Part shown: one piece after another, positions 3,685 through 64,000 of the stretch
Layout of the letters: each line of letters begins with the position of its first letter
Numbering within the stretch: the first letter of the stretch is position 1
From: Verrucomicrobiaceae bacterium
Lineage (GTDB): Bacteria > Verrucomicrobiota > Verrucomicrobiia > Verrucomicrobiales > Verrucomicrobiaceae
Assembly (NCBI GenBank): GCA_027486585.1
Contig: JAIXOU010000064.1
Span: 1 to 64,000 of the forward strand
Length of the DNA stretch: 64,000 nucleotides
Reading direction: 5' to 3'
The notes under the pieces: generated by a model
Told to the model about the DNA's origin: nothing
The model's input: the letters and a program-made list of their open reading frames with translations, nothing else
Databases searched by the model: none
Position numbers and translations under genes: made by a program

Positions 3685-3700
3685 CGAGTGTCGAAGCAGG

Positions 3701-3854: not shown

Positions 3855-3862
3855 TTCCTCCC

Positions 3863-28118: not shown

Positions 28119-28586
28119 TCATGGTGTCTCGCCAACAAACTCAGCGATTCGTTTTTTGGTCATCTCAATTGAGGTGTCGGCGGCAGCTAGGGGGGCACCA
28201 GAACCTCCGTCGTAATCTTCATAGGCCTCTGTCATGGCTTTTTCACGCATTTTAAGCCACTGACGCTGCTGCTCCAAAAACTGGCTTCTCGCTTCACCTT
28301 CTAGCTTTTCCAGCCGGGAATGAAAAATGGACCAAAGCTGCGCATCGTAAATGCTGGCTAGGCTGGTTGAAAGGTAGTTCATATCCTGCTGGGCATCGCT
28401 CTTTTGAAGCAATTCCTCGACAAGACTGATGGGTTCCGACAGGTCTGGTGACCAATCAGATAGGGATGAGGGCAGGGAAGAGGATGGTTTCGTGTGACAG
28501 GATGAAAAAAGCAGAATGACGGCGAGTGAAGCAATGGATTTCATGGGTGTCTTTAAGCGTGAGTGGTTGGGCAGTAAGTCGTACAA
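28119..28586 (-). CDS. LprI/DUF1311-like secreted protein
   Basis: Lipoprotein-like N-terminus; QDMNYLSTSLASIYDAQL...FLEQQRQWLKMREKA pattern. Confidence 0.5.
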   Translation of the reverse strand: MYDLLPNHSRLKTPMKSIASLAVILLFSSCHTKPSSSLPSSLSDWSPDLSEPISLVEELLQKSDAQQDMNYLSTSLASIYDAQLWSIFHSRLEKLEGEARSQFLEQQRQWLKMREKAMTEAYEDYDGGSGAPLAAADTSIEMTKKRIAEFVGETP

Positions 28587-29341
28587 AAGTCTGTCAAGAT
28601 GATGGCCAATGGTTCGGGAATGCGGGCCAAGGCAAACTTTCTTAGTTCATCGGGAATATGGCCATACCAAGCTTCGGCAATGCCTCCGACAATACAAGCC
28701 AGGGTATCGGCGTCACCCCCAAGGCTGATGGCCAATCGCAGCGCATGCTCATAGCTGGTGCTATCAAAAAAGGCAGCTAAGGCTTCTGGGACAGTTTCTT
28801 GGCAGGTTGGCTTGAAGTGATAGCCAGGTCTGATCTCGTCACAGCTCCGGCTCAGGTCATAGCCAAAGCGGTCGGTGATTTCGGCTCGAATAGCTTCCTT
28901 GGACGCTTTTTTTCTAGCCATGAAGACTGCTAGGGCCGTCGCCTGAGCACCTTTGATTCCCTCGGGATGACTGTGCGTCACACAGGCGGAGCGAGCTGCT
29001 TCTGTCAGCACGGTTTCTACCGTGTCGCAGGCCCAGCCCACAGGGCCTACTCGCATGGCAGAGCCATTGCCACAACTATTGTAGGGCTCGCAGAGGCTGC
29101 CATAAAGCCATCGCTTGAATCCCTGGCCATAGCCACCCATGGGAAAACGATAGGTCGTGCCAAAGCGTCGATAGGCTTCGGTATAGTCGCCACCCTGCAA
29201 CAGCGTTTCAGCTGTTGCAAAGGACAGGATGGAGTCGTCAGTGATTTCGCTGTCAGGTGGAGTAAGATCGAAATCGAGATGTTTGATGCTGCTGAATTCG
29301 TAAGTTGAACCGCAGATGTCGCCGATGATTGAACCAAGCAT
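28553..29341 (-). CDS. ADP-ribosylglycohydrolase (DraG) family protein
   Basis: GSIIGDICGS, TDDSIL, CVTHSHPEGIKGAQ, ISLGGDADTLACIVGGIAEAWYG. Confidence 0.9.
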   Translation of the reverse strand: MLGSIIGDICGSTYEFSSIKHLDFDLTPPDSEITDDSILSFATAETLLQGGDYTEAYRRFGTTYRFPMGGYGQGFKRWLYGSLCEPYNSCGNGSAMRVGPVGWACDTVETVLTEAARSACVTHSHPEGIKGAQATALAVFMARKKASKEAIRAEITDRFGYDLSRSCDEIRPGYHFKPTCQETVPEALAAFFDSTSYEHALRLAISLGGDADTLACIVGGIAEAWYGHIPDELRKFALARIPEPLAIILTDFCTTYCPTTHA

Positions 29342-29386
29342 AAGTGAAGTTGAGGGAAGTAGAGGGTTTGTGTTTGTGGTATGTGT

Positions 29387-31273
29387 TTACGGGGAGAAAG
29401 TGGATTGAAAGGAGGCAAGAACGGCGTCGGCCTGAGCCTTCTGCTGACACAAGCTTCGGATGGAAGCTTCCGTGGCGAGCATCTTTTGTTGGGCACTCTT
29501 GGTGCACGCTGCCAACGGTTGCTGCACTGAGGCAAGCTTCCGTTGATGGTCTTGCTCTGCTTGCTGCAGCATCTGTTCGACTCGCGCTTGATCCTGGAAA
29601 CTCAGGACAACCGATTTTGTCACCTTGATTCCGCGCGCCATTCGTCGACGCCATTTGAGCAGGCTGGTGATGACATTTGAGGGCATGCTCGCTGCCTGAA
29701 GCTGTTGTGGCTGCAAGTCCGCCGCGGTGAGAATGTTTGCGCTTCTGAGCTTTGCCATGCGGGAATCTCCAACCATCGGAATTTTGTAATCCTGAAGCAT
29801 CATGCATTCTAGGTGCTTGTTCAGGGATTCTTGGTTGTTACTTTTGAGCACGCCCTCGAGGAACTGCGACCGCTTCTTTGCCATGGATGGCTGGCGCTTG
29901 AGCCAGTCCTGGAGGCTTTTTTTATGGCGCTGAAAATCTCTCTGATAGTTGACGATGACTTGCCTTTGCACCTGCTGCAGAGACCTGATTTTGTCGCTGA
30001 TGTCCTTGATCAGAGCCCGTTGTTTCCGCATCTCCTCCTGCTGCCAGTTTTTCTGCCAATGTTGTCGAAACAGAAGGCGGCTGCACCAGGACATGAGTCC
30101 CTGCGGCCCAGGCTGAATAGGAATTTGAACCGGCATGACAGCCGCAGTTTCAGTCGTGACCTGAAAGGCAAAGGGCTGATGACTCTTGAGAACTTCCGCA
30201 ACCGGATCTTTAACACTCGACAGCAAATCATGGCTAGCACGGGGAAAGAGATCTGCCCCGGTCTGTTTGAAGATGGTGCACCAAGGACATTCCATCGCAC
30301 CTTTCCAGTGACAATGCGCCGGAGATGCCTGGCAGCGGATGAGATCATGTTCAAGGTTTACCAGAAGGTCCGCCCAACTCTGAGCCGAGGGTCTCATACC
30401 CTCTTGTCTTGAACTGGGCTCGAACGCTTCAAGAAAGGCCTGCTGGATGGGGGGAGGAAGCATCGCAAAAGATGGCGCTGCTTTCGGTGGCGAGAGTGGC
30501 AAGCCTAACTTGGCAGGAGCGTAGGCGAACGCATGCTGACGAATGGCATCATGCGGCTGCAGGTCATCATTGCCGACAGGCACACCAGCGAACGGATGCC
30601 GACCCGAGAAAAGCAAAAGAAAGATCAATTGAGCCAGTCCAAAAAGGTCATGATTGGCGGTGCGTTGCACTCCAGTGAGCTTTATTCCTTGGAGCTCTGG
30701 GGGCGTCCAGAGTGGGGTTCCCACGTCCGACGTGTGGAGCCTTTCGCCATCGTGAACCTGAAAACTATCCGTATCGATCAATCGCACACCATGGCCTGGC
30801 ATCACCTTCAAATTCTTTTCGTTCACATCCCCAATAACCAAGCCATGAGCATGAACCTTGGCAAAGGCCTGGGCAGTCTGTTTTGCTGTTTTCACCAGCA
30901 ACTCGAACGTAGCACCGGGCAGAAGAACGCGTCTAGAACCCATGTTGTAGATTTCAAAAACATCCAGTCCCTCGGCGAGTGGGATAAAGACGCCGCAATG
31001 GCGGGTCTTAGCGGCGTCAGAAAACGCTAGGGAAACAGGAAGAGCGGCAACATCAGATAAGGAACCCGCCAATTGGCGGAGTGCCTCACTGCGCCGGCGA
31101 TCTGCCTGAGACGGTGCAGAGTGCCAGATTTTGACCAGGTGACTGTTCACGGCTCGTAGCTTCCGCACGACGCCTTGCCCACCGCGGGCAAGCTCGGCTT
31201 CCATTTGAAAAACGGTACCGGATTCGTCAAAGATTGGGCTCATGGAGAATGATGGCCAAGGTTTTGTCGTCAT
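29387..31273 (-). CDS. Atypical Ser/Thr kinase, TerY-P-type, with helical/HhH C-terminal region
   Basis: ELARGGQGVVRKL, VIGDVNEKNLKV, RLIDTDSFQ, GTPLWTPPELQG; C-terminal LRSANILTAADLQPQQLQAA (HhH-like); start probably 31243. Confidence 0.85.
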   Translation of the reverse strand: MTTKPWPSFSMSPIFDESGTVFQMEAELARGGQGVVRKLRAVNSHLVKIWHSAPSQADRRRSEALRQLAGSLSDVAALPVSLAFSDAAKTRHCGVFIPLAEGLDVFEIYNMGSRRVLLPGATFELLVKTAKQTAQAFAKVHAHGLVIGDVNEKNLKVMPGHGVRLIDTDSFQVHDGERLHTSDVGTPLWTPPELQGIKLTGVQRTANHDLFGLAQLIFLLLFSGRHPFAGVPVGNDDLQPHDAIRQHAFAYAPAKLGLPLSPPKAAPSFAMLPPPIQQAFLEAFEPSSRQEGMRPSAQSWADLLVNLEHDLIRCQASPAHCHWKGAMECPWCTIFKQTGADLFPRASHDLLSSVKDPVAEVLKSHQPFAFQVTTETAAVMPVQIPIQPGPQGLMSWCSRLLFRQHWQKNWQQEEMRKQRALIKDISDKIRSLQQVQRQVIVNYQRDFQRHKKSLQDWLKRQPSMAKKRSQFLEGVLKSNNQESLNKHLECMMLQDYKIPMVGDSRMAKLRSANILTAADLQPQQLQAASMPSNVITSLLKWRRRMARGIKVTKSVVLSFQDQARVEQMLQQAEQDHQRKLASVQQPLAACTKSAQQKMLATEASIRSLCQQKAQADAVLASFQSTFSP

Positions 31274-32012
31274 CCGTGCGTTGGCACACCAGATCGGATT
31301 CCAACAACTGTGTCAGCTGGGTGGAAAAGATGGGGACAATCGTTTTGCGCAACTCGCGCATAAGGGGGGCTAAAAAGCCACGATGAGGCACTCTGCCGGA
31401 AAGGTTAATGGCCAGACGTTCCACCCCATCGGTCATGCCAAAGATGGAATCGAAACCTCCCTCCAGCATCTCGAACTGAAGAACCCGTTTGGCAGCTTCA
31501 CAGGTGACGAAGGTGGTTTCACCAGCATGCTCGCCGCCAGTCGGCCATGTCATCGCTGCCAGAATGCCGTTTCGGCACACACACCACAATCCATCCCCAA
31601 CTTGATAGAAAGCTACCTTTGTTGGGGTGATCACCGTGACCAGGAGAGTGGAGGCGAAGTCAGCGATGTTGACTGCTTTGTCGTGGGCTTCTTTGGCAAT
31701 GCGCTGGCGCACGTGTTCAAGCATTTCCAAGCCGCATCGAGCATTGAGCTTGGATTCAACACCGGATGCTCCAACGCGCAGAAATTGACTCAAAAAATAA
31801 TCCAGGGCCCCATCCACGGCCAGCTCACTGCCCCGATCCGCATGACTTGCCGATCCCGCGCCGTCAGCAAGGGCGCAAACCAATGCTCCAGGAACCTCTA
31901 GGAACCCGTTGGCATCCTGACAGGGCAGTTGGTTACTGAGGTGCGCAGCTCCGCGCACCGAAACTTGAGCATGCTTCCAGACGGTCGGTTTCATGGCAAG
32001 TTTACAGATCAA
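31227..32012 (-). CDS. PP2C-like phosphatase of a TerY-P triad
   Basis: VRGAAHLSNQLPCQDANGF...CALADGAGSASHADRGS, FGMTDGVERLAI. Confidence 0.85.
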   Translation of the reverse strand: MICKLAMKPTVWKHAQVSVRGAAHLSNQLPCQDANGFLEVPGALVCALADGAGSASHADRGSELAVDGALDYFLSQFLRVGASGVESKLNARCGLEMLEHVRQRIAKEAHDKAVNIADFASTLLVTVITPTKVAFYQVGDGLWCVCRNGILAAMTWPTGGEHAGETTFVTCEAAKRVLQFEMLEGGFDSIFGMTDGVERLAINLSGRVPHRGFLAPLMRELRKTIVPIFSTQLTQLLESDLVCQRTDDDKTLAIILHEPNL

Positions 32013-32721
32013 TCGAAGACCAACCTGCGGATGACGGCAGGGTCAGCGAGGCTGCACCGGGGGTTGAGCTGGAAACCGCCTTCAAGGAGGATGATAACCA
32101 AGAGAACAGCTCGCGAAAACAGAGTCCGCGCAATTTCATGGCGGGTCGTTTGGGCGGGCAGAGTAGATTGAGTCTTTTCATGTTCGCTTCTTCGACTCCG
32201 ACTCCGAAAAAGCTGAGCTTGCCCTTCATCTCGCCTTCATGAATGAGGGCGATCGCATCCTGCCAATAATGGCTTCCATCATCCGTGGGCTCACCATCAG
32301 TGATCAAAAACAACCAGGGTCGGTAATAAGCAATGCCTGCTGCGCGGTATTGCATCTTTCGCTGTTCCAGCATGGTAACTGCACGCACCACAGCCTCGCC
32401 CATCGGTGTGCCGCCATCCGCCTGCAAAGTGGGGGCTAGGAAGGATTCGGCATTCGTGAAATCGCAGACCGTCTTGACGGTTCCACCAAAGGAAACGATG
32501 GCAACATCCACTCGTTTGCGGGCAAGGTTATCTGCAGCCAGTTCGCTGGCAAACTGTTCAAGCCCGCGGTTCAATGCCTCAATCTTTTTTCCGCTCATGG
32601 AGCCTGACGTATCGACTAACAGGATGGTAGGTGCACGAGGTTCAGGATTGTCGGCGAAATCAACATCAATAATGGTGGGTGTCATCGTGATAGCCTCGTT
32701 TTCGGCATGTAGTCTTTTCAT
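32002..32721 (-). CDS. TerY-like vWA domain protein
   Basis: MIDAS LLVDTSGSMSG, LITDGEPTDD. Confidence 0.87.
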   Translation of the reverse strand: MKRLHAENEAITMTPTIIDVDFADNPEPRAPTILLVDTSGSMSGKKIEALNRGLEQFASELAADNLARKRVDVAIVSFGGTVKTVCDFTNAESFLAPTLQADGGTPMGEAVVRAVTMLEQRKMQYRAAGIAYYRPWLFLITDGEPTDDGSHYWQDAIALIHEGEMKGKLSFFGVGVEEANMKRLNLLCPPKRPAMKLRGLCFRELFSWLSSSLKAVSSSTPGAASLTLPSSAGWSSIDL

Positions 32722-32772
32722 AGGGTGGTTTTGTTTTGGGGGTAATGGTTTCGGTGGGGTGAAGTCAGTTCC

Positions 32773-34440
32773 TCAGGCAGCACGCGCCATTTGTGCAAAG
32801 ACGCGACCGGCAAGTTGGGGCAGTTGGCTCGGACTCAGGTTGATCCGCGCAGATGGAACGAGTTTGGCCAGAGATGAAGTGTCAGGGCCAAGCCCCAGAG
32901 CCGTGATGCTGCTGGCGTGTTGTCTGAGAACGCCCAACTGGCGACGTGCATCGTCAAAGTTTTCCGGTTCGCCATCGCTCAATAGCCAGAAGTGGCGGTG
33001 ACGGTGGGGCAATTCTTCGAGAAGCTCTCTGGCCTCAATCAGGGCACCTGTGAGGTTGGTGCCGCCATTGGGGTTATTACGCAGCTGGCAAAGACGGGAC
33101 ACGACCTTATCGCAGTCGGGCGCGGCCCAGTCTTGGACAAGGTGTGTGTTCGAACTGAACATGAGAATGCTCAGAGGTAGTCCAAGACGCAGACAAGATT
33201 CTCGCAGCATCACGAGGGCATCAAAAGTGGCGTGAGCACGTTCTCCTTCCATGGATGAAGATGCATCGGCAAGTATGACAAAAGCAGGGTCAGGTCGTGT
33301 GGGCTGGTTCATTCGCTGCCAGAGTCGGTCATGGCGGCGCGGATCCGCCTCGTATTGCATGGCCTGACGAATATCCATGCGCTGACCGCTGCGGTGATGG
33401 CCACGATAGCGCATTTTCACTTCCGCGGTCATGTGACGCAACATCGCTTCTGTGATCTGTTCAATCGCGCCATGGTGGCGAACCAGGGACTGGTGGTAAT
33501 CACTCTGCTTGGGATCATTCCAAAGGAAGACTCCTTGCTGCCGACCGCCCTTCGTCGAGGTCCTTTGACCGCGTGCATTGCCAGTCTGGCCTTGTGCCGC
33601 AGCACCTCCGTAGCGCCCTTTTTGAATTGAGCCACGGGTTTGCCTCAGTTGCGTTGCTAGTTGACCCAGTGGAGACTTGGTCTGATCCAAAAGACGGCGA
33701 AATACTGGCAAAATTTTACGCCAGACAATTTCCCACATTTCATGCTGTGCCATTCGCACCTCAAGTTCCATCGGGGCCGGCGGCTCTCCGTAATCCAGGC
33801 CTGTGTAGCAGGCCCGCACCGGATGGTTAGCATAACTCATGCGTGTTTTCTCCGGATCTGGACATTCCACTGGCGGGGCTGCCTCGATGGCAAGTTCGAT
33901 GTGAGACCAAACCTCATCCAGCGCTTTCTGCGCAGGCTCAGGCAAATGTTCCGGAACACGGCCATACCACCAGCGGCAGAGGATGGCGATGAGAAATGCG
34001 GAGCCAGGATCAGCTTCAAGCTTTTCTCGCGAAGTGACCAGCAGTTCGCTAAACAGCAGGTCGTTGTAGCAGCGGATCCATGGTTGGCAACCTGGCAGGC
34101 GAATGGGTAGCCAGCGCTCGAGTCGGCAGTCATCGATCACGTTAATTAAGGAATGAACAACATGGTCTTTCAGAAGCGCCTCTGGCACGATGTCCCAGAT
34201 GCGGGTCATATAGGCATGCGCCGCCTCATGCAGCGAAAGGCCTCGACAGTAGTCCTGAGGGCGCAGCCTGAGATCCGCAAGATTAACGGTGATGACTTGA
34301 TCTTTCCAGTTGAAGCTCCACGGAACGTTGAGCTCCGTGCCTACTTCCAGGATGATGTTAGGCTGCTGTGCGACTAATGCGATCAGCCCTCTAAGCTCTT
34401 GGGTGAATTCGGAAAGATGGGGAGGATGGGCGGTTTCCAT
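32773..34440 (-). CDS. vWA domain protein partnered with MoxR ATPase (CoxE-like)
   Basis: HEAAHAYM in N-terminal region; MIDAS ILADASSSMEG; LLSDGEPENFDD. Confidence 0.85.
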   Translation of the reverse strand: METAHPPHLSEFTQELRGLIALVAQQPNIILEVGTELNVPWSFNWKDQVITVNLADLRLRPQDYCRGLSLHEAAHAYMTRIWDIVPEALLKDHVVHSLINVIDDCRLERWLPIRLPGCQPWIRCYNDLLFSELLVTSREKLEADPGSAFLIAILCRWWYGRVPEHLPEPAQKALDEVWSHIELAIEAAPPVECPDPEKTRMSYANHPVRACYTGLDYGEPPAPMELEVRMAQHEMWEIVWRKILPVFRRLLDQTKSPLGQLATQLRQTRGSIQKGRYGGAAAQGQTGNARGQRTSTKGGRQQGVFLWNDPKQSDYHQSLVRHHGAIEQITEAMLRHMTAEVKMRYRGHHRSGQRMDIRQAMQYEADPRRHDRLWQRMNQPTRPDPAFVILADASSSMEGERAHATFDALVMLRESCLRLGLPLSILMFSSNTHLVQDWAAPDCDKVVSRLCQLRNNPNGGTNLTGALIEARELLEELPHRHRHFWLLSDGEPENFDDARRQLGVLRQHASSITALGLGPDTSSLAKLVPSARINLSPSQLPQLAGRVFAQMARAA

Positions 34441-34449
34441 AAGGCAGGT

Positions 34450-35931
34450 TTAAAGGTCGGCAGCGCGTAGCATGGCGGCCACCGCGTTGCGATCAGCCAC
34501 GTCGCGAAGGCGTTTGACATAAAAAATGTCGATCGCCTCGCGTAGCAGCATTCGGCTTGGTTCCGCTCCCGCAGCCAATTGACGGTGGACAAACTCCAAC
34601 GTGCTAAGCAGCGTGCGCCGTGTGAAACTGTAACGCTCGCGTCGCGTTCTTCCCAGGCTGGCTGGGCCATTTTCTGTTCCGGACGCTTTCACCATGGAAA
34701 TCTGAAAGAGAGCCAGATGACGTGCCAAGTTGTCCCAATCTGGCAGTTGCTGCAGCAGTTCGAAAGTCGGCTCTGTGCTTGCTGCTTGATAGGCCTTGCC
34801 GTTGCAATGCACCACGGGGTGATGTCCCGTCGCTAGAAATCGAATCGTCGCGAGGTAGTCTGCCTCTCCTGGGGGCGCTGCCTGATGCCAGAGCGTAAAG
34901 CGGTCGCGAAAAGCTGGGCTAAGCACATTGCGTCCGGCATACTCGGCAGGGTTTAGCGTGGCAAAGATGCGAAATAGTGGGTGCACGGGGATATCACCAC
35001 CAGGTCCATAAACTCGGCCATCTCCCTCGCTCAACATGAGCATGCGAGGGCGTTCAAGGACACTGTTGATACGTTCCAGATTCTGAGGCTCAGCATTATT
35101 GACCTCGTCCATCAAGAACCAGAGGCCATGCTCTAGGGCAATGGGCAGTGCGCCTAGTTGCAGACGCCAGTTCACGGTCGGCAGCCGCTCATTTCCCATG
35201 ATGAAATGCATCTCTAGGGGCGTCAGTCCACGCTTGCTGGACTCTGCCTGCGCTAGGATGTCACGGCTTGCTTTGGAAAGTCGGGGGGCCAAGGCCTGCA
35301 GTTGACCCAGGTCGATTCCGTCGGCACCACTACCTGGCACATAACGCGCAATGAGCTCTCCCGAGTCGGACTGGCCGTGAAGGTTTAAGCGCATGAGGGG
35401 CTGCTTCAGCAAATGAGCCAGCCAGAGCACCCCAGTAGTCTTCGCAGCGGCGGTTTCACCTTCGGATGCCTGTGGATAATCGTAGGCTGCCCCCATGGCC
35501 ACAGATTTGATCGTGTCCACCGTCGGCTGGTCAAAGACCAGATGCTTGAAGCGATCCGCTGAAGGAATGAGTCCCTGCCACGCACCTTCATAGGGTTGTG
35601 GCTTTTTCATCATAAAATCCAGAAAGCGCAGCTGTCCTTCTTTGTCCTCCATCAAGGGCTGTGGTGCCTGTGCCATCAGAGGCGCTGCCTCCGTGGCCTC
35701 ATCACCCGTGCCACTGGATAGGTGTGACCGACGGAAGACCTCCCAGGTCACCAGCTTCACGCCGCGCTGCTGTACTTGTTGATAAATTTCGCGGCTGGCG
35801 TCAGGGCCCGTGACGACCAGCTGCGCCACATCCACCATGCGGACGACGCGGTGACCGCCTTGGGTAACGAGTTGCGCGACACGGGCACTTTCAGCAGGTG
35901 GGAAACCTTTGAGACAAATAGAATAGGACAT
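34450..35931 (-). CDS. MoxR-like AAA+ ATPase with N-terminal BRCT-like region
   Basis: ASEGETAAAKTTGVLWLAHLLKQPLMRLNLHGQSD, WFLMDEVNNAEPQNLERINSVLE, FRIFATLNPAEYAGRNVLSPAFRDRF. Confidence 0.85.
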   Translation of the reverse strand: MSYSICLKGFPPAESARVAQLVTQGGHRVVRMVDVAQLVVTGPDASREIYQQVQQRGVKLVTWEVFRRSHLSSGTGDEATEAAPLMAQAPQPLMEDKEGQLRFLDFMMKKPQPYEGAWQGLIPSADRFKHLVFDQPTVDTIKSVAMGAAYDYPQASEGETAAAKTTGVLWLAHLLKQPLMRLNLHGQSDSGELIARYVPGSGADGIDLGQLQALAPRLSKASRDILAQAESSKRGLTPLEMHFIMGNERLPTVNWRLQLGALPIALEHGLWFLMDEVNNAEPQNLERINSVLERPRMLMLSEGDGRVYGPGGDIPVHPLFRIFATLNPAEYAGRNVLSPAFRDRFTLWHQAAPPGEADYLATIRFLATGHHPVVHCNGKAYQAASTEPTFELLQQLPDWDNLARHLALFQISMVKASGTENGPASLGRTRRERYSFTRRTLLSTLEFVHRQLAAGAEPSRMLLREAIDIFYVKRLRDVADRNAVAAMLRAADL

Positions 35932-35951
35932 GGTAATTGGAGAACTGAGAT

Positions 35952-36392
35952 TCAGGGGTTGAGAGTTGAGAGAAGTTGTAGAATGCGCTCCTTCAGATCT
36001 GGTTGTTGGAGCAGGATGTGATCACGGATCGAAGGGCGTAGCCGGAGAAACCGTTTGCCGACAAAACCATGCAGCAAACGTCTTGTTAGACTGCCTTTGG
36101 CAAAGGCAGGGCTGCTGCGCTGTATCCATTCCGTATCCGGCCCAGGGTGAACACAGTCCACAATAGGCCAAGTGAAGCGGGTCCCGAGACTGTCACGAAG
36201 ATGCAGTCGATCAGTGAGTTTAACCTCAGCGACGGTGTAGGTGTCATTTAACTCAACGCGTCCTAAACCGATGGTGTCCCTTATGATCCTGACACGGCTT
36301 CCAACTGGGTAGCGGTGCTTGAGAGTTTCAAGAAGTTGGTGATCCACGGCGGTATGGGAGTTAGTCGAGGTCTTCGAATTCGAGGAGCTCAT
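35952..36392 (-). CDS. Hypothetical small-beta-barrel (KOW-like) protein
   Basis: RVRIIRDTIGLGRVELNDTYTVAEV; same strand as MoxR operon. Confidence 0.55.
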   Translation of the reverse strand: MSSSNSKTSTNSHTAVDHQLLETLKHRYPVGSRVRIIRDTIGLGRVELNDTYTVAEVKLTDRLHLRDSLGTRFTWPIVDCVHPGPDTEWIQRSSPAFAKGSLTRRLLHGFVGKRFLRLRPSIRDHILLQQPDLKERILQLLSTLNP

Positions 36393-36843
36393 TCAAAGAA
36401 TCAGTTGCAGATGCAGCAGTATCCTCGTTCGGAGTTGAAAGGCCGGCTTCTTCATCCGCCAAGGCACCAAGGATTTTATCATGCAGTGCTGGAATCTGCA
36501 TGACTAGACGGTTGCGCAGATCTTCGCGCAGTAAGAGGTTTTCAACGCCGTCAAAGGCAGCCAGCAAATCCAAAGCCTCGGCTGGTAAAACGGTCTTAAG
36601 CCAATCCCAGCCAATATCATTGGCTTTTTTGCAGTCACACCATTTGATCCAGCCGCCTTCACTTCCAGTGTTAGACTTGGCCTTAACGGTTTGGTCACTG
36701 CTATCCACGCTGATCACGGTGTAGTAGCGGCCTGGCTCATAACCGTGATGACCAAAACCGCCAATGGCGATAATTTTATTCCCTTCTTTAAAAGGGGCAT
36801 TGTCAGAGGAACGACGACGGGAGAAGGGGTCTTTGGGGCGCAT
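36361..36843 (-). CDS. Hypothetical small-beta-barrel protein, paralog of the next gene
   Basis: GNKIIAIGGFGHHGYEPGRYYTVISVD and a C-terminal R..I..IPALHDKILGAL tail like 35952..36392. Confidence 0.55.
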   Translation of the reverse strand: MRPKDPFSRRRSSDNAPFKEGNKIIAIGGFGHHGYEPGRYYTVISVDSSDQTVKAKSNTGSEGGWIKWCDCKKANDIGWDWLKTVLPAEALDLLAAFDGVENLLLREDLRNRLVMQIPALHDKILGALADEEAGLSTPNEDTAASATDSLNELLEFEDLD

Positions 36844-37260: not shown

Positions 37261-37501
37261 ACGAGCGAAAGTACGATACACGGAACCCTTCATTCTGTGC
37301 TTAGCGGGAATGGCGGAATTTCGTTATAAAACAGAGCAAATTTTCTCTTCGCGGCTGTTTTGAAAAGTGCTTGGCTGCAGGTTATAAGTGCTCGGTTTTT
37401 TAGTGCCCCTCGGAGGGCGTTTAAAAAAAATCTAAATCTTTTTTTCACGAATCTCCACCAATAAGCCGAAGGCTCTTTGGACCCCCATTTTTCTTTCCTC
37501 A

Positions 37502-38275
37502 ATGTCACCCGAATCACATCAACTTCTGAATTTCCTCGCCAGGGAATGTCAGTCAGCCACACTGGATGGCGATAAAGCGAATGCAGACAAGTTCTGGGAG
37601 CTTCTAGATAAGCCTTTGCGAAACGCCCTTCAAAAGATGTTTCTCAGAAATAGAGATCCAGAAGATCTAGTCCAAGAGGCCATCAAAGCTATTTACAAAA
37701 ACATCTGGCTTTTCGACCCTGAAAAAGCTTCATTTCAAACTTGGGCAAAATGCCAAGCTTATTCAGCCATGACCGATTACCTGCGCACGACGGGGGGGTA
37801 CAGTCGGACGATGGCAGAACACAAAAAACTCATTATTAAAAAACTGCACTTCCATTTTGAGGCTGGCCCCGCAGTTGGGCAAAGTTTGCTAGACTGGGCA
37901 AGAGAGCATCAAGAAGTTCTCCCTAGCTTGACGGGACTGAGTGCCAGACAAGTATCCAATGCCCTTGACCGATGGAGTCTGGAAGATGCCGCTGATATCG
38001 AAGAAGTTGAGGAGAAAGCTTTTAATGTGCTTCCTTCTCGATTTTCGCGGGAAGATGTAGAGGTGGCTATGAGCCGTCTTGAACCTAGGTCTAGGACTTT
38101 TCTGATCCAGAAGTATGTGTCCGGCATGAGCTACGTTGAAATCGCTGAGAAATACAATTTAACCAAAGCAGCATCGGAGAAACCGATGAATGAAGTGTAT
38201 GCCAGAAGAATCGTGAGTAACGCCTGCAGAGACCTTCGCTATATCCTTGAACGAATGGAACAGAACGGACTGTGA
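37502..38275 (+). CDS. Sigma-70/ECF-like RNA polymerase sigma factor
   Basis: RNRDPEDLVQEAIKAIYKNIWLF (region 2-like) and MSYVEIAEKYNL..ASEKPMNEVYARRI (region 4-like). Confidence 0.75.
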   Translation: MSPESHQLLNFLARECQSATLDGDKANADKFWELLDKPLRNALQKMFLRNRDPEDLVQEAIKAIYKNIWLFDPEKASFQTWAKCQAYSAMTDYLRTTGGYSRTMAEHKKLIIKKLHFHFEAGPAVGQSLLDWAREHQEVLPSLTGLSARQVSNALDRWSLEDAADIEEVEEKAFNVLPSRFSREDVEVAMSRLEPRSRTFLIQKYVSGMSYVEIAEKYNLTKAASEKPMNEVYARRIVSNACRDLRYILERMEQNGL

Positions 38276-38302
38276 ACGAAAACAAAACCACTAACCTCTC
38301 GA

Positions 38303-39145
38303 ATGATGAATCTTTCACACACCCTTGACCCGCAAATCGCGCAATTTTTGGCTGAGCTTCCAAGCCGCCTGCAGCTCCTGCAATACATCACAGGACAGGC
38401 CAGTCCTGTTCTCTCTGAAATCATCGAAGCCCACATGCAGCGGTCCCCTGGGGTTCGCCAAAATGTTGAGTTTCTGTTGAGGGAACTCGAACCAGAAACT
38501 TTCTGTGAAGATACCTATCATAGACTTCGGCGGTTGATTCAACGGAATAAAGACACCGATGCCCCTCTGCACATGCGTCCAGGCTTGGATGATTTGAGTG
38601 GCTATTTCGCCGAAATGGCCCCATTGTTCGGGGACGAACTTATCGGAGCTCAAATGCAGGGATCTTCTGAGGTTCGCATGGATGTGGAAGCCTTGCTGGA
38701 GTCGGACATGGAATTCGACAAGGCCCTGGAGGAAAGTCTAAAGCGGATGGAGAGCGAGGCTGCTAGCGCCCGAATAGGTAGTTCCGCGCGCGATTTCCAC
38801 GAGCTAGCCTTGGCGGCAGCCGAAAGAATAGATCCGCCATCCAAACTGGTTCTCGAACCTTCGGAAGGGCTCGGAGGCATTCTCGGATTGTGTTGTGTGG
38901 CCTCTGCTTCCGTCGAGGCACCCGCTTATGCGACAACCTTTCGTCTTTCTTTCCGTGGTAAAGAGCAAGCCCAAGGTGTTCCCAATCGCATTAAAGTAAA
39001 ATGGCCAACGGGAGACCGTCTGTCACGCCCTTTTGAATTCAGGGATGATCGATGGAGATCTGAGGTTGTTCTCCCTGTCGGATGGAATACGGTCAGCACT
39101 TGGCTGATGAAGGGTGATGTGTCGTTTGTTGCTGCTTCAGAGTGA
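38303..39145 (+). CDS. Hypothetical protein between sigma factor and NACHT gene
   Basis: ORF co-oriented; stop overlaps the next GTG start (GTGA at 39142-39145). Confidence 0.65.
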   Translation: MMNLSHTLDPQIAQFLAELPSRLQLLQYITGQASPVLSEIIEAHMQRSPGVRQNVEFLLRELEPETFCEDTYHRLRRLIQRNKDTDAPLHMRPGLDDLSGYFAEMAPLFGDELIGAQMQGSSEVRMDVEALLESDMEFDKALEESLKRMESEAASARIGSSARDFHELALAAAERIDPPSKLVLEPSEGLGGILGLCCVASASVEAPAYATTFRLSFRGKEQAQGVPNRIKVKWPTGDRLSRPFEFRDDRWRSEVVLPVGWNTVSTWLMKGDVSFVAASE

Positions 39146-42100
39146 GTCTCAAGTTTCGCATGCAGGATCTACACACAATAGCCATTTACAGATTCAACCG
39201 TCATGACTTAGACAGGCTGGAAGAGTGCATTGATTTAACAAAGTCTCGATGGCTGGACGACCTTGCCAGTGGTGACTCGGATCGCCAGGCAGCAGCGTGC
39301 CGAACTGCGGCACAAGACATCCGCAAAGAACTGGCATTCAACGAAGATGAAGTTTTGCTCGATCCTCTCGTCGCAGACCTTTGTTGGCGCAAAGCAAGTT
39401 CATCACCTGACTGGAAGCCGAAACCTCAGAGCCTGCCTCGGTCGCACAACAACAAGCTTTCTCTGGATTTCATTTTCATCAGTCAAGCCGGCGACGGTGA
39501 TGCTCTTCTTGGAAAGTTGATTTTTGAACGGATTGACGATCAGGCCTGCACAGGCAGTGTTTACCCTGCGTTGGAAATGTATGGCGTACATACCGATGCT
39601 GATTGGGATGGTGCTGTGGATGCTGCGATAGACCATGCAATTAAAAACGGCATACATGTCCCTTACTCTTCAGATCTGCGATGGACGGCCGAGATCTCCA
39701 CCGGAAAAAATGCCGATGGTAAGGGTGAATATCGGGCACTTAAAAGTGGCGACAAACTGCTGGGTAGAAGTGCTGGAGTGACGTTTTTGCTGGGCCTTTC
39801 TTATCACTTTGGAAGTCACTCCCCAGATACCCGGCGCGCTTTCCAGAGCATTCTAGCGCTGACGGCTCTGCCTTACAAATATGAAGCAGACACCTCCACT
39901 CTCTGTGACCTCGGCGGCCAGGAAGAAAAGAAGGCGGAAGCATTGCAGTTGCTACAACAATCAGACCCTCACATTAGAAGAAACGTTTTGCTTGCCGCTC
40001 GTCGCGAACACAAGCTGGACTCCTTGAAGGGATGTAAAGAGCGCCTTGCAGGCAAAGTAACTGAGATCTTTAGACATCTTGAGGACATTCTTCGTGAAGG
40101 CCGCAGATTCCCCCAAGCACTCGATTTTGAAACGTATATCCAGCAAAAGCGTAAGGGCTTTGTGGGTCGAGAGTGGATATTCAAAAAAATCATCGACCAA
40201 CGAAAGACAGGAATACCACGCATTCTCCTGATTTCCGGAGACCCTGGAAGTGGGAAAACCAGTCTTGCAGCCGAGTTGGTGAAACGCGATACGAGCATTG
40301 TAGCGCATCACTTCTGCCAGGCCTCAGATGCAGATACGATGACCGCAGGCAACTTTGTGCGCAGCCTTGCAGCCATGCTTGCAGAAAATCTTCCAGATTA
40401 CAAAGAACGTCTCCAAGAGAATGATGACTTGCTAAATGTTCTCTCAAAAGAAAAAGCAGATAGCCTGCCTGGAACTGCATTTAACAGAGCTATATTGAAT
40501 CCCCTTCATTCCCTTCGAAGGCCTCGCAAAAACAAACGCAAATGCATCGTCATCGACGCGATAAACGAAGCCGAAGAAGATCTTTTAGACTTACTCAAAG
40601 AAGATAGATTATGTCAGCTACCGGACTGGATCGATGTTGTGCTGACATCGACACCCATGTCGCGCCTCCTGAAGAGCCAGTTTAGTGGCATTAAAAGTCT
40701 TGATTTGGGGGAGGCCACTGCGGAAAACCGTTTGGATATTCAGGCCTTTTTAGAACAGCGTGTGAGTGAGTCGGAGCAGGGTGAAAAACTGAAGGAGATC
40801 CTTCTGGAAAAAAGCTCGGGTAATTTTCTTTATGCAGCTCAAGCACTTAAAGGAATCGAGAATGAAATCTATAGACTCGATCAACTGGAGCAAGATTTGC
40901 CACCCGGTCTGAATGGCTTGTATGAGGCCTATTTTGGGAATGCTTTTGGTGCTGGTGAAAGTTCTTTGTATCGACAAATTAATCCGCTGTTGGAACTCTT
41001 GTGCTGCGCCCATGAACCCTTAACAAACGCAGAAATTGAAGCTGCTTTGGGTCTGACTAAAATACAACGGGCGAAAATGATAGAGTTCGTATCACAGTTT
41101 TTAGGCCACCGCAGCCGCAGTAATGGCGAGGAGACAATCACCATGTATCATCTTTCCATCTCGGATTGGCTGACTTCATCGGATCATTATGGTCATAAGT
41201 ATTTGATCAGCTCGGCAGAGGGGCAGAAACGCCTGGCGCAGTATTGCCGTGCTGCCATAACAGAAAGCACGAAACGGCTATCATGGTATGTCCGCCGCCA
41301 TGCCGTGACGCACTTTATTGAAGACCATGACTGGCATAGTGCTGGTGAGCTCCTCTGCGATATTGAGTATTTGAACAGCCGCGCTCAACTGCATGAACTT
41401 GCCTTTGTTAGAGCCGACTTTTTTGAACTCAGTAAGGCCTTGTCGGGCATCTCTGAAAAAGAACCCAAATCCCAAGACCTTCTTCTAAAAATTCGATCCT
41501 ATCAGGCTTTTGTGGCTAACCACATGCAAGCTTTGCAAAAGCACAGTCATCGGACCCATTTCTTTCATCAGCATGTTTATCTGCTTAGCCACCAGTCCGG
41601 TAGTCTAGGTGATTGTGAAAATTCTGTTTTTGAAGCTGGACATAGCATCTTGCGCGGCATCACTGAGCCAAAAGCAATACGATACTTCAGATGGATAGCT
41701 TCGCGGCTTCACAGTTTTGATTTCGATCAAAATCAATTGCGGCTCCCCCCCACGCTGACTGACCTGACGTTACAGCACAGGCACAATTGGTCTTCTGTAA
41801 ACCGAGCGGGGTTTTCGTTACGTAACCTAGATGAATCCATGAGTCGCATTGCCATAAGTCAAAGTGGATTCAAGTGTGCTTATTCTTCATTCGTTGCAGA
41901 TGAACATCATCTTTATACTTCGCGTTTCAGCCAACGCTCAAGGTTCGAGGTTCATGAAAGCTCTGCTCTGACAATTTTCCAAACTGAACCGAACACAATT
42001 CGTAATGTGGGCCCGAACGAACTGGGGCGAGGTTCTATTCATGACCTATCCATTAGCGATTGCGGCAGGTATTTGTTTTTCATTTCGCTTGGCGATATGA

Positions 42101-42753
42101 CTCCAGTTAGGTTTGATACGGAGACTTCAAGTAGGACTTCGCTCGTGCCTGGTCTTGCATCACGACTAGCTATGAGTTTCGCAGCCGATCGTGCGGCAGT
42201 TCTAGAACAGGATTCAATAAAAATCTGGAGCATCTCGAATCAAACGGTCATTCAAGAGATTGCGTTAGAGTTTAGTCATCCATTTTATACTTTTGCCCTT
42301 AGCTCAGATGGCAATCGATTCGTCACATCGGATGATCACAAACTGACTATTTGGGATGTTAATAGGGGGATTGTAATCCACGAAATTTTTGGAAACCGAG
42401 GTTGGTTTTGCCATGCCTCTTTGAGTTCTAAAGGGGAACTGCTGGCTTCAGCAGGTGTGGACGGCGTTCTCCGCATTTGGCATTCCCCCATGGGGGAGTT
42501 GATTGCTGAACTGCATGGCCACGAAGGAGCGATTCGCTCTGTTTACATGAGTGGCGACGGGACGTTGATTTACTCCTGGGGTATGGATTCAACCATTCGT
42601 GTTTGGCGTGTCGAAGATCAAAAGTGCCTGCTGCTTTTGTATTTACCTGGAGTTTGCCGTTTCTCTGCAAGAACTGAAGAGGGGTTAGTTGCCGTCGGTT
42701 TTGCGAATGGAGATGTCGATCTTTATAAGATTCAGAATTTAGATGGGGCCTGA
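39142..42753 (+). CDS. NACHT/STAND NTPase with WD40 C-terminal repeats
   Basis: Walker A ISGDPGSGKTSLAAEL, Walker B-like CIVIDAINEAEED; C-terminal WD repeats (LTIWDVNRG, LRIWHSPMG, IRVWRVED); GTG start. Confidence 0.85.
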   Translation: MSLKFRMQDLHTIAIYRFNRHDLDRLEECIDLTKSRWLDDLASGDSDRQAAACRTAAQDIRKELAFNEDEVLLDPLVADLCWRKASSSPDWKPKPQSLPRSHNNKLSLDFIFISQAGDGDALLGKLIFERIDDQACTGSVYPALEMYGVHTDADWDGAVDAAIDHAIKNGIHVPYSSDLRWTAEISTGKNADGKGEYRALKSGDKLLGRSAGVTFLLGLSYHFGSHSPDTRRAFQSILALTALPYKYEADTSTLCDLGGQEEKKAEALQLLQQSDPHIRRNVLLAARREHKLDSLKGCKERLAGKVTEIFRHLEDILREGRRFPQALDFETYIQQKRKGFVGREWIFKKIIDQRKTGIPRILLISGDPGSGKTSLAAELVKRDTSIVAHHFCQASDADTMTAGNFVRSLAAMLAENLPDYKERLQENDDLLNVLSKEKADSLPGTAFNRAILNPLHSLRRPRKNKRKCIVIDAINEAEEDLLDLLKEDRLCQLPDWIDVVLTSTPMSRLLKSQFSGIKSLDLGEATAENRLDIQAFLEQRVSESEQGEKLKEILLEKSSGNFLYAAQALKGIENEIYRLDQLEQDLPPGLNGLYEAYFGNAFGAGESSLYRQINPLLELLCCAHEPLTNAEIEAALGLTKIQRAKMIEFVSQFLGHRSRSNGEETITMYHLSISDWLTSSDHYGHKYLISSAEGQKRLAQYCRAAITESTKRLSWYVRRHAVTHFIEDHDWHSAGELLCDIEYLNSRAQLHELAFVRADFFELSKALSGISEKEPKSQDLLLKIRSYQAFVANHMQALQKHSHRTHFFHQHVYLLSHQSGSLGDCENSVFEAGHSILRGITEPKAIRYFRWIASRLHSFDFDQNQLRLPPTLTDLTLQHRHNWSSVNRAGFSLRNLDESMSRIAISQSGFKCAYSSFVADEHHLYTSRFSQRSRFEVHESSALTIFQTEPNTIRNVGPNELGRGSIHDLSISDCGRYLFFISLGDMTPVRFDTETSSRTSLVPGLASRLAMSFAADRAAVLEQDSIKIWSISNQTVIQEIALEFSHPFYTFALSSDGNRFVTSDDHKLTIWDVNRGIVIHEIFGNRGWFCHASLSSKGELLASAGVDGVLRIWHSPMGELIAELHGHEGAIRSVYMSGDGTLIYSWGMDSTIRVWRVEDQKCLLLLYLPGVCRFSARTEEGLVAVGFANGDVDLYKIQNLDGA

Positions 42754-42758
42754 CGTCT

Positions 42759-43601
42759 TTAGATCCCCCATCGAGCGCCCGCGATTGCACCCACGAGAAT
42801 GGGACAATAATGTCCAGGATATGAAAATTTGAATGCGGCATCCAGAGCGGATCCAAAATCTGAACTGCTCTGCACAATCGACACTGCGGCGCGAAGCACC
42901 TCTGGAGCATAACCTCCTTTGTTCAACGGACTCGAATCTGGAAGCAGCAGTGAGAACTTTGACTTACCTTTAACTTCCTTGGCCGTCTGACCTATTGCCT
43001 CCTGCCAATCCATTCCATTGATCAAATGTCTGCATAGCAAAACAACGGCGGCAGAGGCTTCGCCGGCATCTGGATGCAAATGTGTTAAGCGCGCCTCAGT
43101 TCTAGCGAGATCGGCCAATGCATTGGTTGGTAAAAAGGGCATCATAGCCAACACGGAGGCTCTGTGAGCGGGGTTGCAGCCAGCGGTCATCCCACCCGCT
43201 TCATTATCGACCATCTCGACTGCCCTATTGTGATTAATGCCCCCCTGAACCAATTCAAAAACTCGATGAACCGTTGGTCCCGCATCGTAGGCTTGCTCTG
43301 TCCACTTCTGAAAATAAGTCTCAAAAACAGAGTTTGAATTAAACACCGTGTTTTTTTCAAAGCTCAGCTTGAGGCATTCGGCCATGGTTGTCACACCGCC
43401 GCTTAGATCGCCCTGCGTCAGACCTTTCCATAGACCGATTCTTCTTAGCGATTTTGGGTCTGTTATTTCGGTGAGTGTGCTGGATTCCATGTTTTCTTGT
43501 TCAGGTGCTTTCAGCCTACGCTTTGGACAGCCGGTTTCAAATTCTCTACTTAATTTTTCACGTTTGATGGGCATGTAGCCGAATCGTTCAGTAACCACCA
43601 A
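42759..43601 (-). CDS. ADP-ribosylglycohydrolase-like protein with degenerate motifs
   Basis: GLTQGDLSGG, LHPDAGEASAAVVLLCRHLI, PILVGAIAGARWGI; lacks GGDxDT. Start probably downstream of 43601. Confidence 0.6.
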   Translation of the reverse strand: MVVTERFGYMPIKREKLSREFETGCPKRRLKAPEQENMESSTLTEITDPKSLRRIGLWKGLTQGDLSGGVTTMAECLKLSFEKNTVFNSNSVFETYFQKWTEQAYDAGPTVHRVFELVQGGINHNRAVEMVDNEAGGMTAGCNPAHRASVLAMMPFLPTNALADLARTEARLTHLHPDAGEASAAVVLLCRHLINGMDWQEAIGQTAKEVKGKSKFSLLLPDSSPLNKGGYAPEVLRAAVSIVQSSSDFGSALDAAFKFSYPGHYCPILVGAIAGARWGI

Positions 43602-43624
43602 ACCCCCTTATTGAATTCATTCTT

Positions 43625-44293
43625 ATGAACGACTCCCTTGCTGAAATCGCCTATATTCTCGATCGCTCCGGCTCCATGAGGCCAATGCAGGAGGCCGCAA
43701 TCACGGCCTTCAATGATTTTGTTTCTTCTCAGCGCGAAGTGCCCGGGCAGGCGCGCCTTACCCTAGTTCAGTTTGATGATCGTTATGAAGTGCCTGTTAG
43801 CGTGTGTGATCTTGCCAGTGTTCCTAAATTGACCAGAGCCACTTACACGCCCAGAGGAAGCACGGCGCTGCAGGATGCGATTGGTCGCACCATCCAGGAT
43901 ACCGCGCAGAGGATTGAATCTCTGCCTGAATCTGAGAAGCCGGGCAAAGTGATCTTCGCTATTTTTACAGATGGCCTTGAAAACGCTTCCCGAAAATATA
44001 CGCACCACCACGTGGGTGACCTCATCAGTCAATACAGGGACAAGCATGGATGGGAGTTCTTATTCCTTGCAGCCAATCAGGATGCCATCGCAAGCGCAGC
44101 TTCTCTAAACATGGATTCTCATCTCAGTGGCAACGTCGAGTTTTCCGAAAACGGTGTGAGAAGCACTGGCCATGCATGGTCGAGAAAAGTTCGCTCCATT
44201 CGCATGAAAAAGCTCGGAGAGATGGATGCCCAAGCCTTAGAAGACGATGTGAAGTCCATGAATGAAATCGTCAACGAAGAGAAGCAGAAATGA
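43625..44293 (+). CDS. vWA domain protein
   Basis: MIDAS YILDRSGSMRPM, FAIFTDGLENAS. Confidence 0.88.
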   Translation: MNDSLAEIAYILDRSGSMRPMQEAAITAFNDFVSSQREVPGQARLTLVQFDDRYEVPVSVCDLASVPKLTRATYTPRGSTALQDAIGRTIQDTAQRIESLPESEKPGKVIFAIFTDGLENASRKYTHHHVGDLISQYRDKHGWEFLFLAANQDAIASAASLNMDSHLSGNVEFSENGVRSTGHAWSRKVRSIRMKKLGEMDAQALEDDVKSMNEIVNEEKQK

Positions 44294-51745: not shown

Positions 51746-53758
51746 CTAAGGGTTACCCTTTTCATGAAGCTTTACCAAGGCTTCTTTGATGAGTGGCAGC
51801 GCTTTTTCATGACCTTGTTCGGCGGCACGGCGTAGCCAAGGGAGCGCGGCGCTAGGCGAAAATTCCATGAACTTGCCTGTCAGGTAAGCATTGCCGATCC
51901 AAAGCTCGGCGTCCATGTTCCGCAAATCGCCAGCGCGGCGATTGGTCTCTAAAGCTCGAAGAATGCGGTCTTCCTTTAATGCAGGGTTACTGGATTGGAT
52001 TTCAAAAGAAACGAGGCTGCCGGTTTCTTGCCTGGTGATGATTGCCTCATCAAACTCGTATAGGGGATCGATTTGAGCTTCCTCGCTCATCTTTTGCGCC
52101 ATGATGAAGTTAGCTGCCCTCCAATGACTTTTTCCACGCTCATCTGCCCAAATGGCATTCAAGCTTTGCGCCGGCGAATAAGTTGGGGAAGCCAATTTAT
52201 CTCTCCATAACGCGGAGGTTTTATCATTAACTGGCAAACCGTCACCTGTTTCGGTGATAATCGACAAGAGATGAATGGCCTCCTCACGCCCTTTTTCGGC
52301 AGCTCGGCGAAGCAAATCAATAGCATGACTGAGGTCCTCCGTGCGTGGTGTCGCCGTGTAGGCACAAAAACCGAGAACGGCATGCGCCGGGAAGAAATCT
52401 TGGTCGGATGATAGCTTGAAATAGCGTAAAGCCATGGCCTCGTCCTTCTTCACACCGATTCCCCAAAAGTAACTGCAACCAAGGTTGTATTGCGCTGAGG
52501 CATCTCCTTGTTCAGCTGCTTTTTCAAACCAAGGAACAGCTGCTTCTAGATTAAAATTCTCACCATTAAGAAGGTGGATGAAACCTCGCATGTTCTGTGC
52601 TTTAGCATGTCCACCCTTGGCAGCTTTGTCAAACAATCGTGACACAAGAACCAGATCAAGGGGTAGATCTGTTCTGTCGTATTCGATCATTGCGGTCCTA
52701 AAGAGCTCGTCTAGATCGCCAACATTCTCCTTCACATGGTTGGTGGCTGTGTGGGGTTCATGCTGTGACTTTGAAAAGTAAACACCAAAGACAACAGCTG
52801 CGGCCAAAACAAGTGCGGCAAGTAAACCTTCTTTTCCTAGCCTTATTTTGGTTGGATAACTTGCTGTTAAGCCTGCGTGACCAAGAGCGATTCGCATCGC
52901 TGAAAAATCGAGAAAGCGCTCCGAGGGAGTCTCATGGGTTGCTCTATACACAACCTGCTGCATCGCCAACCATCGTTTGCGCTGCGTCTTAGAAAGAGAC
53001 TTTTCGCCTCCGGGTGGCCATCGATAAACAGCACGTCCCATCTTGTCCGGAGCATTCCCTGTCATCAGTGTGAAAAGGGTGGCTCCGGCGCCATATTGGT
53101 CTGGATGACCCCCACTTTCCAAATACCAACTTGGAGCTGCAAATCCGGGTGTTCCGCGCCAGCTTGGCTTTGGCAAATCTTCTCCCAGCAAGCTTAAATC
53201 AGCAATCACAGGAATGTCTTGGATGAATAAAATATTTTCCGGCTTCAGATCCCGGTGCATCAAGCCAAGGTCGGAGAGTTCTTGAAGACCTTGTAAGATA
53301 GAATCCATCACTGCGACTATTTCGTCTTCAGTAAACCAAGTTCCATTTGCTTTGCGTTGCTCCATCACATGCCAAAGCGATGCTGGTTTCCATTCGTCGC
53401 TATCTGGTTCTGCAGTTCCGATTCCATCTGCAAGCGGCATGATATAAAAAAGGCCGTCTTCAGTCCTGTTAACATGTTCTATCCTCATTAGCCATCGAGA
53501 AGCATGTTTCAGCATGGCTCTTTGATATCTCAATAGCGCGTGAAGCTCGCGATCAAGTTTATCTCGGTGGTTCGAAGGTACCCATTTGAAAGCTTTCCAA
53601 AGGCCCGGGGTGAGAACAGGTTCACACAGCCACACTTCACCAAAACCGCCTGAACCGATTATGCGCCGCAATAAATATCCGTCGATGATTTGGTCTTGTA
53701 GCATAAAGGCGCAGATTGAAGGTTCCGATCTAAGGACGTTAAATAGTGCAATCAGCAC
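51746..53758 (-). CDS. Ser/Thr kinase (DLS in place of DFG) with TM segment and Sel1 repeats
   Basis: GSGGFGEVWLCEP, LMHRDLKPENILF, VIADLSLLGEDL, TM LLAALVLAAAVVFGVYF; Sel1 AAEQGDASAQYNLGCSYFWGIGVKKDEAMALRYF. Confidence 0.87.
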   Translation of the reverse strand: MLIALFNVLRSEPSICAFMLQDQIIDGYLLRRIIGSGGFGEVWLCEPVLTPGLWKAFKWVPSNHRDKLDRELHALLRYQRAMLKHASRWLMRIEHVNRTEDGLFYIMPLADGIGTAEPDSDEWKPASLWHVMEQRKANGTWFTEDEIVAVMDSILQGLQELSDLGLMHRDLKPENILFIQDIPVIADLSLLGEDLPKPSWRGTPGFAAPSWYLESGGHPDQYGAGATLFTLMTGNAPDKMGRAVYRWPPGGEKSLSKTQRKRWLAMQQVVYRATHETPSERFLDFSAMRIALGHAGLTASYPTKIRLGKEGLLAALVLAAAVVFGVYFSKSQHEPHTATNHVKENVGDLDELFRTAMIEYDRTDLPLDLVLVSRLFDKAAKGGHAKAQNMRGFIHLLNGENFNLEAAVPWFEKAAEQGDASAQYNLGCSYFWGIGVKKDEAMALRYFKLSSDQDFFPAHAVLGFCAYTATPRTEDLSHAIDLLRRAAEKGREEAIHLLSIITETGDGLPVNDKTSALWRDKLASPTYSPAQSLNAIWADERGKSHWRAANFIMAQKMSEEAQIDPLYEFDEAIITRQETGSLVSFEIQSSNPALKEDRILRALETNRRAGDLRNMDAELWIGNAYLTGKFMEFSPSAALPWLRRAAEQGHEKALPLIKEALVKLHEKGNP

Positions 53759-63856: not shown

Positions 63857-64000
63857 GATAATAAAGGACTTAAAGTATTCGCGTCGGCAGAGAATTTTCC
63901 AACTGTAAATTCTGACTGCCATGAAATGGCTTTTAATGGGGGCCGATGGAGTTTGGTCGGACGTGTAGATAGAAAAGCAGACGTCTGTTCATGGCGTGGA

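Follow-up and report, generated by a model that had tools for sequence, protein, structure and literature searches.

A rare gene trio in Verrucomicrobiaceae that joins an ECF sigma factor to a STAND ATPase with a candidate Lon-like domain

Introduction

CalpL, assembled via cyclic tetra-adenylate (cA4), cuts the anti-sigma factor CalpT with its N-terminal Lon domain, and the extracytoplasmic function (ECF) sigma factor CalpS is thereby released (PMC11417357, PMC12751052). In the type III-E CASP system, Csx29 cuts Csx30, an inhibitor of CASP-sigma (PMC10028731). Comparative genomics has further placed genes for an ECF sigma factor and a DUF1822 protein next to EACC2-caspase proteins with variable C-terminal regions (PMC8195603). 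Here we describe three adjacent open reading frames (ORF1, ORF2 and ORF3, together the trio) in a 64,000-nucleotide stretch of a Verrucomicrobiaceae bacterium genome (GCA_027486585.1, contig JAIXOU010000064.1, positions 1 to 64,000; hereafter the window). They encode an ECF sigma factor, a protein of no known family and a signal transduction ATPase with numerous domains (STAND) that ends in WD40 repeats.

Known bacterial proteins resembling nucleotide-binding leucine-rich repeat (NLR) receptors mostly act through destructive effectors, for example TIR domains or nucleases. Our preferred reading of the trio, to which we assign a probability of roughly 0.42, is that ORF3 is an NLR-type sensor whose Lon-like domain cuts ORF2 and frees the sigma factor. 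The existence of the trio is firmer – it is a real, recurrent but rare three-gene module.

Results

An isolated unit of three genes

The initial annotation of the window described three tightly packed plus-strand genes, and its coordinates proved exact (Table 1). ORF1 and ORF2 are separated by 27 base pairs, and the GTG start of ORF3 overlaps the TGA stop of ORF2 as GTGA. Because the flanking genes are divergent upstream and convergent downstream, the unit comprises exactly these three genes. Its G+C content (0.46-0.50) is lower than that of the window's first half (mostly 0.50-0.57).

ORF1, previously called sigma-like, is an ECF-type sigma-70 factor. Pfam identifies region 2 at residues 39-97 (Sigma70_r2, E 9.6e-11) and region 4 at residues 184-224 (Sigma70_r4_2, E 4.8e-6) with no match to region 1 or region 3, the region 2 plus region 4 composition that characterizes ECF factors, and the NCBIfam sigma70-ECF model TIGR02937 scores 70.7 bits (cut-off 42.9). 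The type III-E sigma model in the NCBIfam scan reached 25.9, under its cut-off of 100. Weak matches to ORF1 within the genus were set aside, as they look like ordinary ECF factors with neither ORF2 nor STAND neighbours in the stretches seen.

ORF2 deserves its earlier description as an unknown, having no family match in Pfam, NCBIfam, PADLOC or PHROGs. Within its N-terminal half, a unit of ~55 residues occurs twice (about residues 20-76 and 93-150), with an internal repeat score of 53 against a shuffle maximum of 43 (0 of 2000 shuffles as high).

The first description of ORF3 as a NACHT-WD40 STAND ATPase was right about the STAND ATPase and the WD40 repeats and wrong about NACHT proper: the Pfam NACHT model stays below its cut-off (19.7 vs 26.7), and the nearest Pfam type is NPHP3_N (residues 345-503, 61.3 bits, cut-off 24.8). 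A TANC1-like winged helix follows at residues 609-703 (HTH_TANC1, 28.3 bits, over cut-off), and WD40 (50.2 bits, cut-off 27, three stretches) matches alongside other beta-propeller families at ~964-1199. We also identified the motifs FVGREW (340), the P-loop GDPGSGKT (366-373) and the Walker B segment CIVIDA (468). ORF3 therefore combines the two hallmarks of STAND proteins, a P-loop NTPase with a winged helix and C-terminal superstructure-forming repeats, here WD40.

The trio recurs in a second species of the genus

Searches for relatives covered samples of phylum and order genomes. When ORF2 and the ORF3 N-terminus were joined as a query against 339 genomes of the order, the sole real relative was a locus (L114, on G021:C84) belonging to a congeneric species. 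A search for the same trio, proposed in the initial annotation, thus yielded one diverged trio in which the order of sigma factor, ORF2 and N-terminal-domain STAND ATPase is kept. The third gene of this locus, which runs off the contig, fuses the N-terminal domain to a different STAND-type ATPase (weak NACHT/AAA_16/NB-ARC matches), with tetratricopeptide-like repeats by eye. Residues 167-265 of ORF2 match the protein at the same gene position (E 3e-4), so that the two proteins can be recognised as alike over the C-terminal ~100 residues; by eye, the N-terminus of the relative resembles a short helical anti-sigma domain. The weight of this recurrence is reduced by the fact that the sigma factors and ORF2 proteins of the two loci can barely be aligned.

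Because the trio recurs with the N-terminal domain kept and an ATPase/sensor half of another type, the sigma factor, ORF2 and the N-terminal domain look like a constant core on which the ATPase/sensor half is swapped. Drawn from two loci, a constant core with a varying sensor is a pattern, not a law. The diverged second trio suggests that the sensor controls a sigma switch, possibly by cutting ORF2.

Beyond this pair, the N-terminal domain is unique in its own genome and was found in none of the other 343 genomes of the phylum sample at E 0.001, and profile searching across 355 genomes, done later, turned up no additional true member. Single-sequence searches of genome contigs, plasmids, phages and viral contigs brought up no real relative of either the N-terminus or ORF2. 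On inspection, weak matches (H28/H29) and the best phylum matches at E 0.001-5 were spurious, and a match at E 2.9e-5 (G383:C131) was rejected since it lies inside an unrelated glycoside-hydrolase-like protein.

Taken alone, the ATPase of ORF3 has relatives in other families of the phylum as well as on two contigs of its own genome (C77 and C64). By eye, the NPHP3_N-type relatives whose N-terminus was read carry a TIR-like domain there, and the C77 and C64 paralogues lack a preceding sigma gene. As TIR occupies this place in NPHP3_N-type relatives and the paralogues of this genome have no sigma gene ahead of them, the N-terminus of ORF3 sits in an effector position. Conservation of the sigma gene therefore depends on which homologs are considered: it is not conserved beside the ATPase homologs examined, which carry TIR, and it is present beside the sole homolog of the N-terminal domain. 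Since sigma and ORF2 genes are present in both loci with the domain and no sigma gene precedes the TIR paralogues, the pairing follows the N-terminal domain.

The same comparison bears on the possibility that ORF3, as an ordinary defence STAND ATPase, attacks the cell directly, with the sigma factor and ORF2 merely regulating its expression rather than being its targets. In the examined genomes the usual effector on ATPases of this type is TIR, so a direct effector here would be normal; the TIR-bearing paralogues, however, lack a sigma gene in front, and the N-terminal domain co-occurs with the sigma/ORF2 pair in both known loci. We regard this explanation as quite improbable.

Two further observations concern the STAND genes of this genome. 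Sensor-1 of ORF3 reads TSTP (residues 501-505, window 40642-40656) where a TIR-bearing paralogue has TSRP, the usual arginine being gone. The N-terminus differs in a further STAND-type gene, on C34, and after the STAND gene on C64 comes a second large gene, with an N-terminus almost the same as one on C34.

The N-terminal domain of ORF3 has Lon-like landmarks

The initial annotation reported an unassigned ~330-residue N-terminus containing GRSAG and proposed, speculatively, a hydrolase, protease or other effector. The region is indeed without a library match, and GRSAG lies at residues 208-212 (serine at 210). It is, moreover, a conserved domain with GRSAG invariant in the sole relative found, and a candidate catalytic domain. 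Other motifs in ORF3 are CTGSxYP (136), HTDAxWDGA (150), DLRW (178), K264 and NVLLAA (281). The domain is 33% identical to its relative (38% over residues 116-269, E 7.9e-14), and the two share CTGS[VL]YP, [VI]HTDAxWDGA, D[LI]RW, GRSAG (5/5 invariant) and K264, which is followed by xEAL.

Lon proteases have a strand and helix, the motif GPSAG and then, ~43 residues on, the catalytic lysine in a GGxxxK helix. In ORF3, the D[LI]RW strand, GRSAG and a downstream lysine occur in the Lon order. The chained-block Lon score of the N-terminus was reached by 3 of 2000 shuffles. When the profile of the pair was compared with Lon and Lon-like sequences, the best alignment kept to the register that had been predicted, with the helix and DLRW strand in place and GRSAG lying over GPSAG, and 13 of 1500 column shuffles were as good (p about 0.01). 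These tests are partly post hoc, because the Lon idea arose from recognising the motif.

Several results weigh against a Lon-like protease that cuts ORF2. The first ~330 residues match no family in Pfam, NCBIfam, PHROGs or PADLOC and no sequence in the PDB; no library assigns them to Lon or any peptidase, and Pfam Lon_C gave no match at an E limit of 10, and a Lon_C search of the whole genome finds C87 alone. Ser210 and Lys264 are 54 residues apart rather than 43, GRSAG has arginine where GPSAG has proline, about 1% of real proteins equal the chained-block score, and an earlier profile comparison of the single ORF3 sequence with Lon settled in the wrong register. Structure prediction, another suggestion of the initial annotation, was run with AlphaFold2 without relatives and gave no usable model (predicted local distance difference test scores of 38 and 36). 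ORF2, compared with four anti-sigma-like domains from the family, scored no better than shuffles as an RskA-type anti-sigma factor, and just two instances of the trio are known.

The missing family hit is itself weak counter-evidence, because a Lon query barely picks up even the Lon domain of the solved Lon protease CalpL (phmmer E 0.58). Given the weak order and profile tests together with the evidence from CalpL that sequence searches miss true members, we hold a Lon-like domain at about even odds.

A non-catalytic N-terminal domain could instead act as an adaptor that binds ORF2, the sigma factor or both, with ATP-driven assembly of ORF3 freeing the sigma factor by a change of shape rather than by proteolysis. 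That the most conserved block of the pair is HTDAxWDGA, beyond the serine motif alone, agrees with such a role, as do the weak Lon similarity and the lack of a catalytic family match. An adaptor would leave unexplained why GRSAG is invariant between proteins of 33% identity and accompanied, in Lon-like order, by a conserved downstream lysine and DxRW strand, and we consider it unlikely.

GRSAG also fits the GxSxG elbow of serine hydrolases of another fold such as alpha/beta hydrolases, is followed by a helix-like hydrophobic stretch and resembles the GESAG motif of esterases; the domain would then be a toxic or signalling effector. Yet in both relatives the motif is preceded by polar, Gly/Pro-rich residues (SGDKLL; PGASLH) where a nucleophile elbow would have a hydrophobic strand, the pair has no invariant aspartate beyond the serine, and Pfam finds no hydrolase in the ORF3 N-terminus. 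For the first two of these reasons we judge an alpha/beta hydrolase less likely than a Lon-like domain, and overall a slim prospect.

A Lon-like consensus probe returned just ordinary Lon-type matches in plasmids. Separately, we observed a Lon-like domain without a Lon ATPase (KDGPSAAVACALL...PIGG...K) at L043, L044, L046, L062 and L063 and in relatives from the genus and order. Some L043-type proteins show, by eye, an apparent leader peptide, and these proteins form a separate Lon-like family.

Genomic setting

Directly beside the trio lies a minus-strand cluster (28553-36392) with the look of a conflict or chaperone system of the MoxR-vWA type. On the other side (42759-44293), a second ADP-ribosylglycohydrolase gene on the minus strand is followed by a divergent plus-strand vWA gene. 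Elsewhere in the window are a kinase-Sel1 protein with PADLOC mad6/PD-T4-6-type matches (51746-53758) and an AAA_11/AAA_12 helicase with a PADLOC MkoA-type match (61841-63922, E 2.5e-48).

An A-tract/T-tract element, AAAAAAATC(n)TYTTTTTT(n)CAC, occurs shortly upstream of both sigma genes (window 37424-37448; L114 4026-4052). Neither of the two genomes, and none of four genomes from the same genus, contains another sequence that matches it exactly, and local alignment of the two sites gave p about 0.017. As the pattern was drawn from these same two sites and the alignment p is only ~0.017, we do not claim it as an operator.

Table 1. Features of the trio, its surroundings and related loci. Coordinates refer to the window unless a locus is named.
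Feature	Position	Strand	Basis or note
ORF1, ECF-type sigma-70 factor, 257 amino acids	37502..38275	+	Pfam, NCBIfam
ORF2, 280 amino acids, no known family, candidate anti-sigma/adaptor	38303..39145	+	No library match
ORF3, 1203 amino acids: N-terminal GRSAG domain, STAND NTPase, winged helix, linker, WD40 propeller	39142..42753	+	Pfam
ORF3 N-terminal region, residues 1-338, candidate Lon-like protease domain	39142..40155	+	G021:C84 alignment, motifs
STAND NTPase and winged helix	40150..41250	+	Pfam NPHP3_N, HTH_TANC1
WD40 repeats/beta-propeller, probable ligand-sensing end	42030..42740	+	Pfam WD40
Upstream neighbour	36361-36843	-	Divergent from trio
Downstream neighbour, ADP-ribosylglycohydrolase	42759-43601	-	Convergent with ORF3
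MoxR-type AAA_5 ATPase	34450-35931	-	Minus-strand cluster beside trio
Two vWA proteins	32773-34440, 32002-32721	-	Minus-strand cluster beside trio
Kinase-like protein	29387-31273	-	Minus-strand cluster beside trio
ADP-ribosylglycohydrolase	28553-29341	-	Minus-strand cluster beside trio
L114 sigma protein, ~230 amino acids, sigma-70 region 4	3259-3960 (L114)	-	G021:C84
L114 ORF2-like protein, 227 amino acids	2566-3249 (L114)	-	G021:C84
TIR-type STAND paralogues of same genome (C64, C77)	L125:7714-14394, L126:1084-4293, L124

Discussion

We propose that the trio works in the cytoplasm as an NLR-type signalling module, with transcription as its output. At rest, ORF2 would hold the sigma factor ORF1 as an anti-sigma factor, a candidate role that we draw from its gene position and from analogy. 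The WD40 end of ORF3 would sense a trigger that is probably either an invader or a sign of damage to the cell, and ATP-dependent assembly of the STAND ATPase would activate the N-terminal domain – a probable Lon-like Ser-Lys protease with Ser210 and Lys264 as catalytic residues. This domain would then cut or remodel ORF2 as its substrate, and freed ORF1 may activate a wider regulon along with its own operon, presumably in defence. A fuller version, which we hold only tentatively, is that an NLR-like sensor uses an undescribed Lon-like protease domain to destroy a dedicated anti-sigma factor, and that different ATPase/sensor halves can be exchanged on a constant core of sigma factor, anti-sigma factor and protease.

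If this is true, intracellular recognition would lead to a transcriptional programme rather than to cell death, and a STAND sensor with an ECF sigma factor of its own would give bacteria a counterpart to those NLRs that alter gene expression. We found no description of a STAND sensor combined with a Lon-like domain and an ECF sigma factor in the open-access literature. Should the N-terminal domain be a protease, the trio would vary protease/sigma signalling in a new way; if it is not, the trio would still be an unusual sigma-coupled STAND sensor.

Among described systems, bacterial NPHP3_N/NACHT-type STAND proteins with an N-terminal TIR share the ATPase type of ORF3 and have members in the same genome, whereas ORF3 has the GRSAG domain in place of TIR and a sigma/ORF2 pair in front. 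EACC2-caspase systems resemble the trio in combining a constant N-terminal module, variable C-terminal sensors, a neighbouring ECF sigma factor and a third protein. The constant domain of the trio is the GRSAG domain; neither caspase nor DUF1822 has a Pfam match in ORF2 or the ORF3 N-terminus. The type III-E CASP system shares the wiring of protease, inhibitor and ECF sigma factor for a transcriptional response. There, however, Cas7-11 and target RNA activate the TPR-CHAT protease Csx29, whereas the candidate protease here is fused to a STAND sensor, and no CHAT domain was found in the ORF3 N-terminus with Pfam or in the PADLOC scan.

CalpL/CalpT/CalpS offers a likeness in both composition and proposed activation: a sensor with an N-terminal Lon-like domain (here a candidate), a ~30 kDa middle protein and an ECF sigma factor, with sensor-triggered assembly as the activation principle. 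CalpT and ORF2 are likened by gene place and by this ~30 kDa size; no relation between them was detected, though their sequences could not be compared. CalpL cleaves as a protease whereas ORF3 is a candidate for one. The CalpL sensor is a cA4-binding SAVED domain and that of ORF3 a STAND ATPase with WD40 repeats; no SAVED domain appeared for ORF3 in the PADLOC scan or among the best 25 of 47 Pfam families listed, and the ORF3 N-terminus had no PDB sequence match to CalpL. By analogy, the trio fits the protease/sigma logic of CalpL/T/S and Csx29/Csx30 with a STAND ATPase as the switch, and would be, after these two, a third wiring of intracellular detection to a sigma factor.

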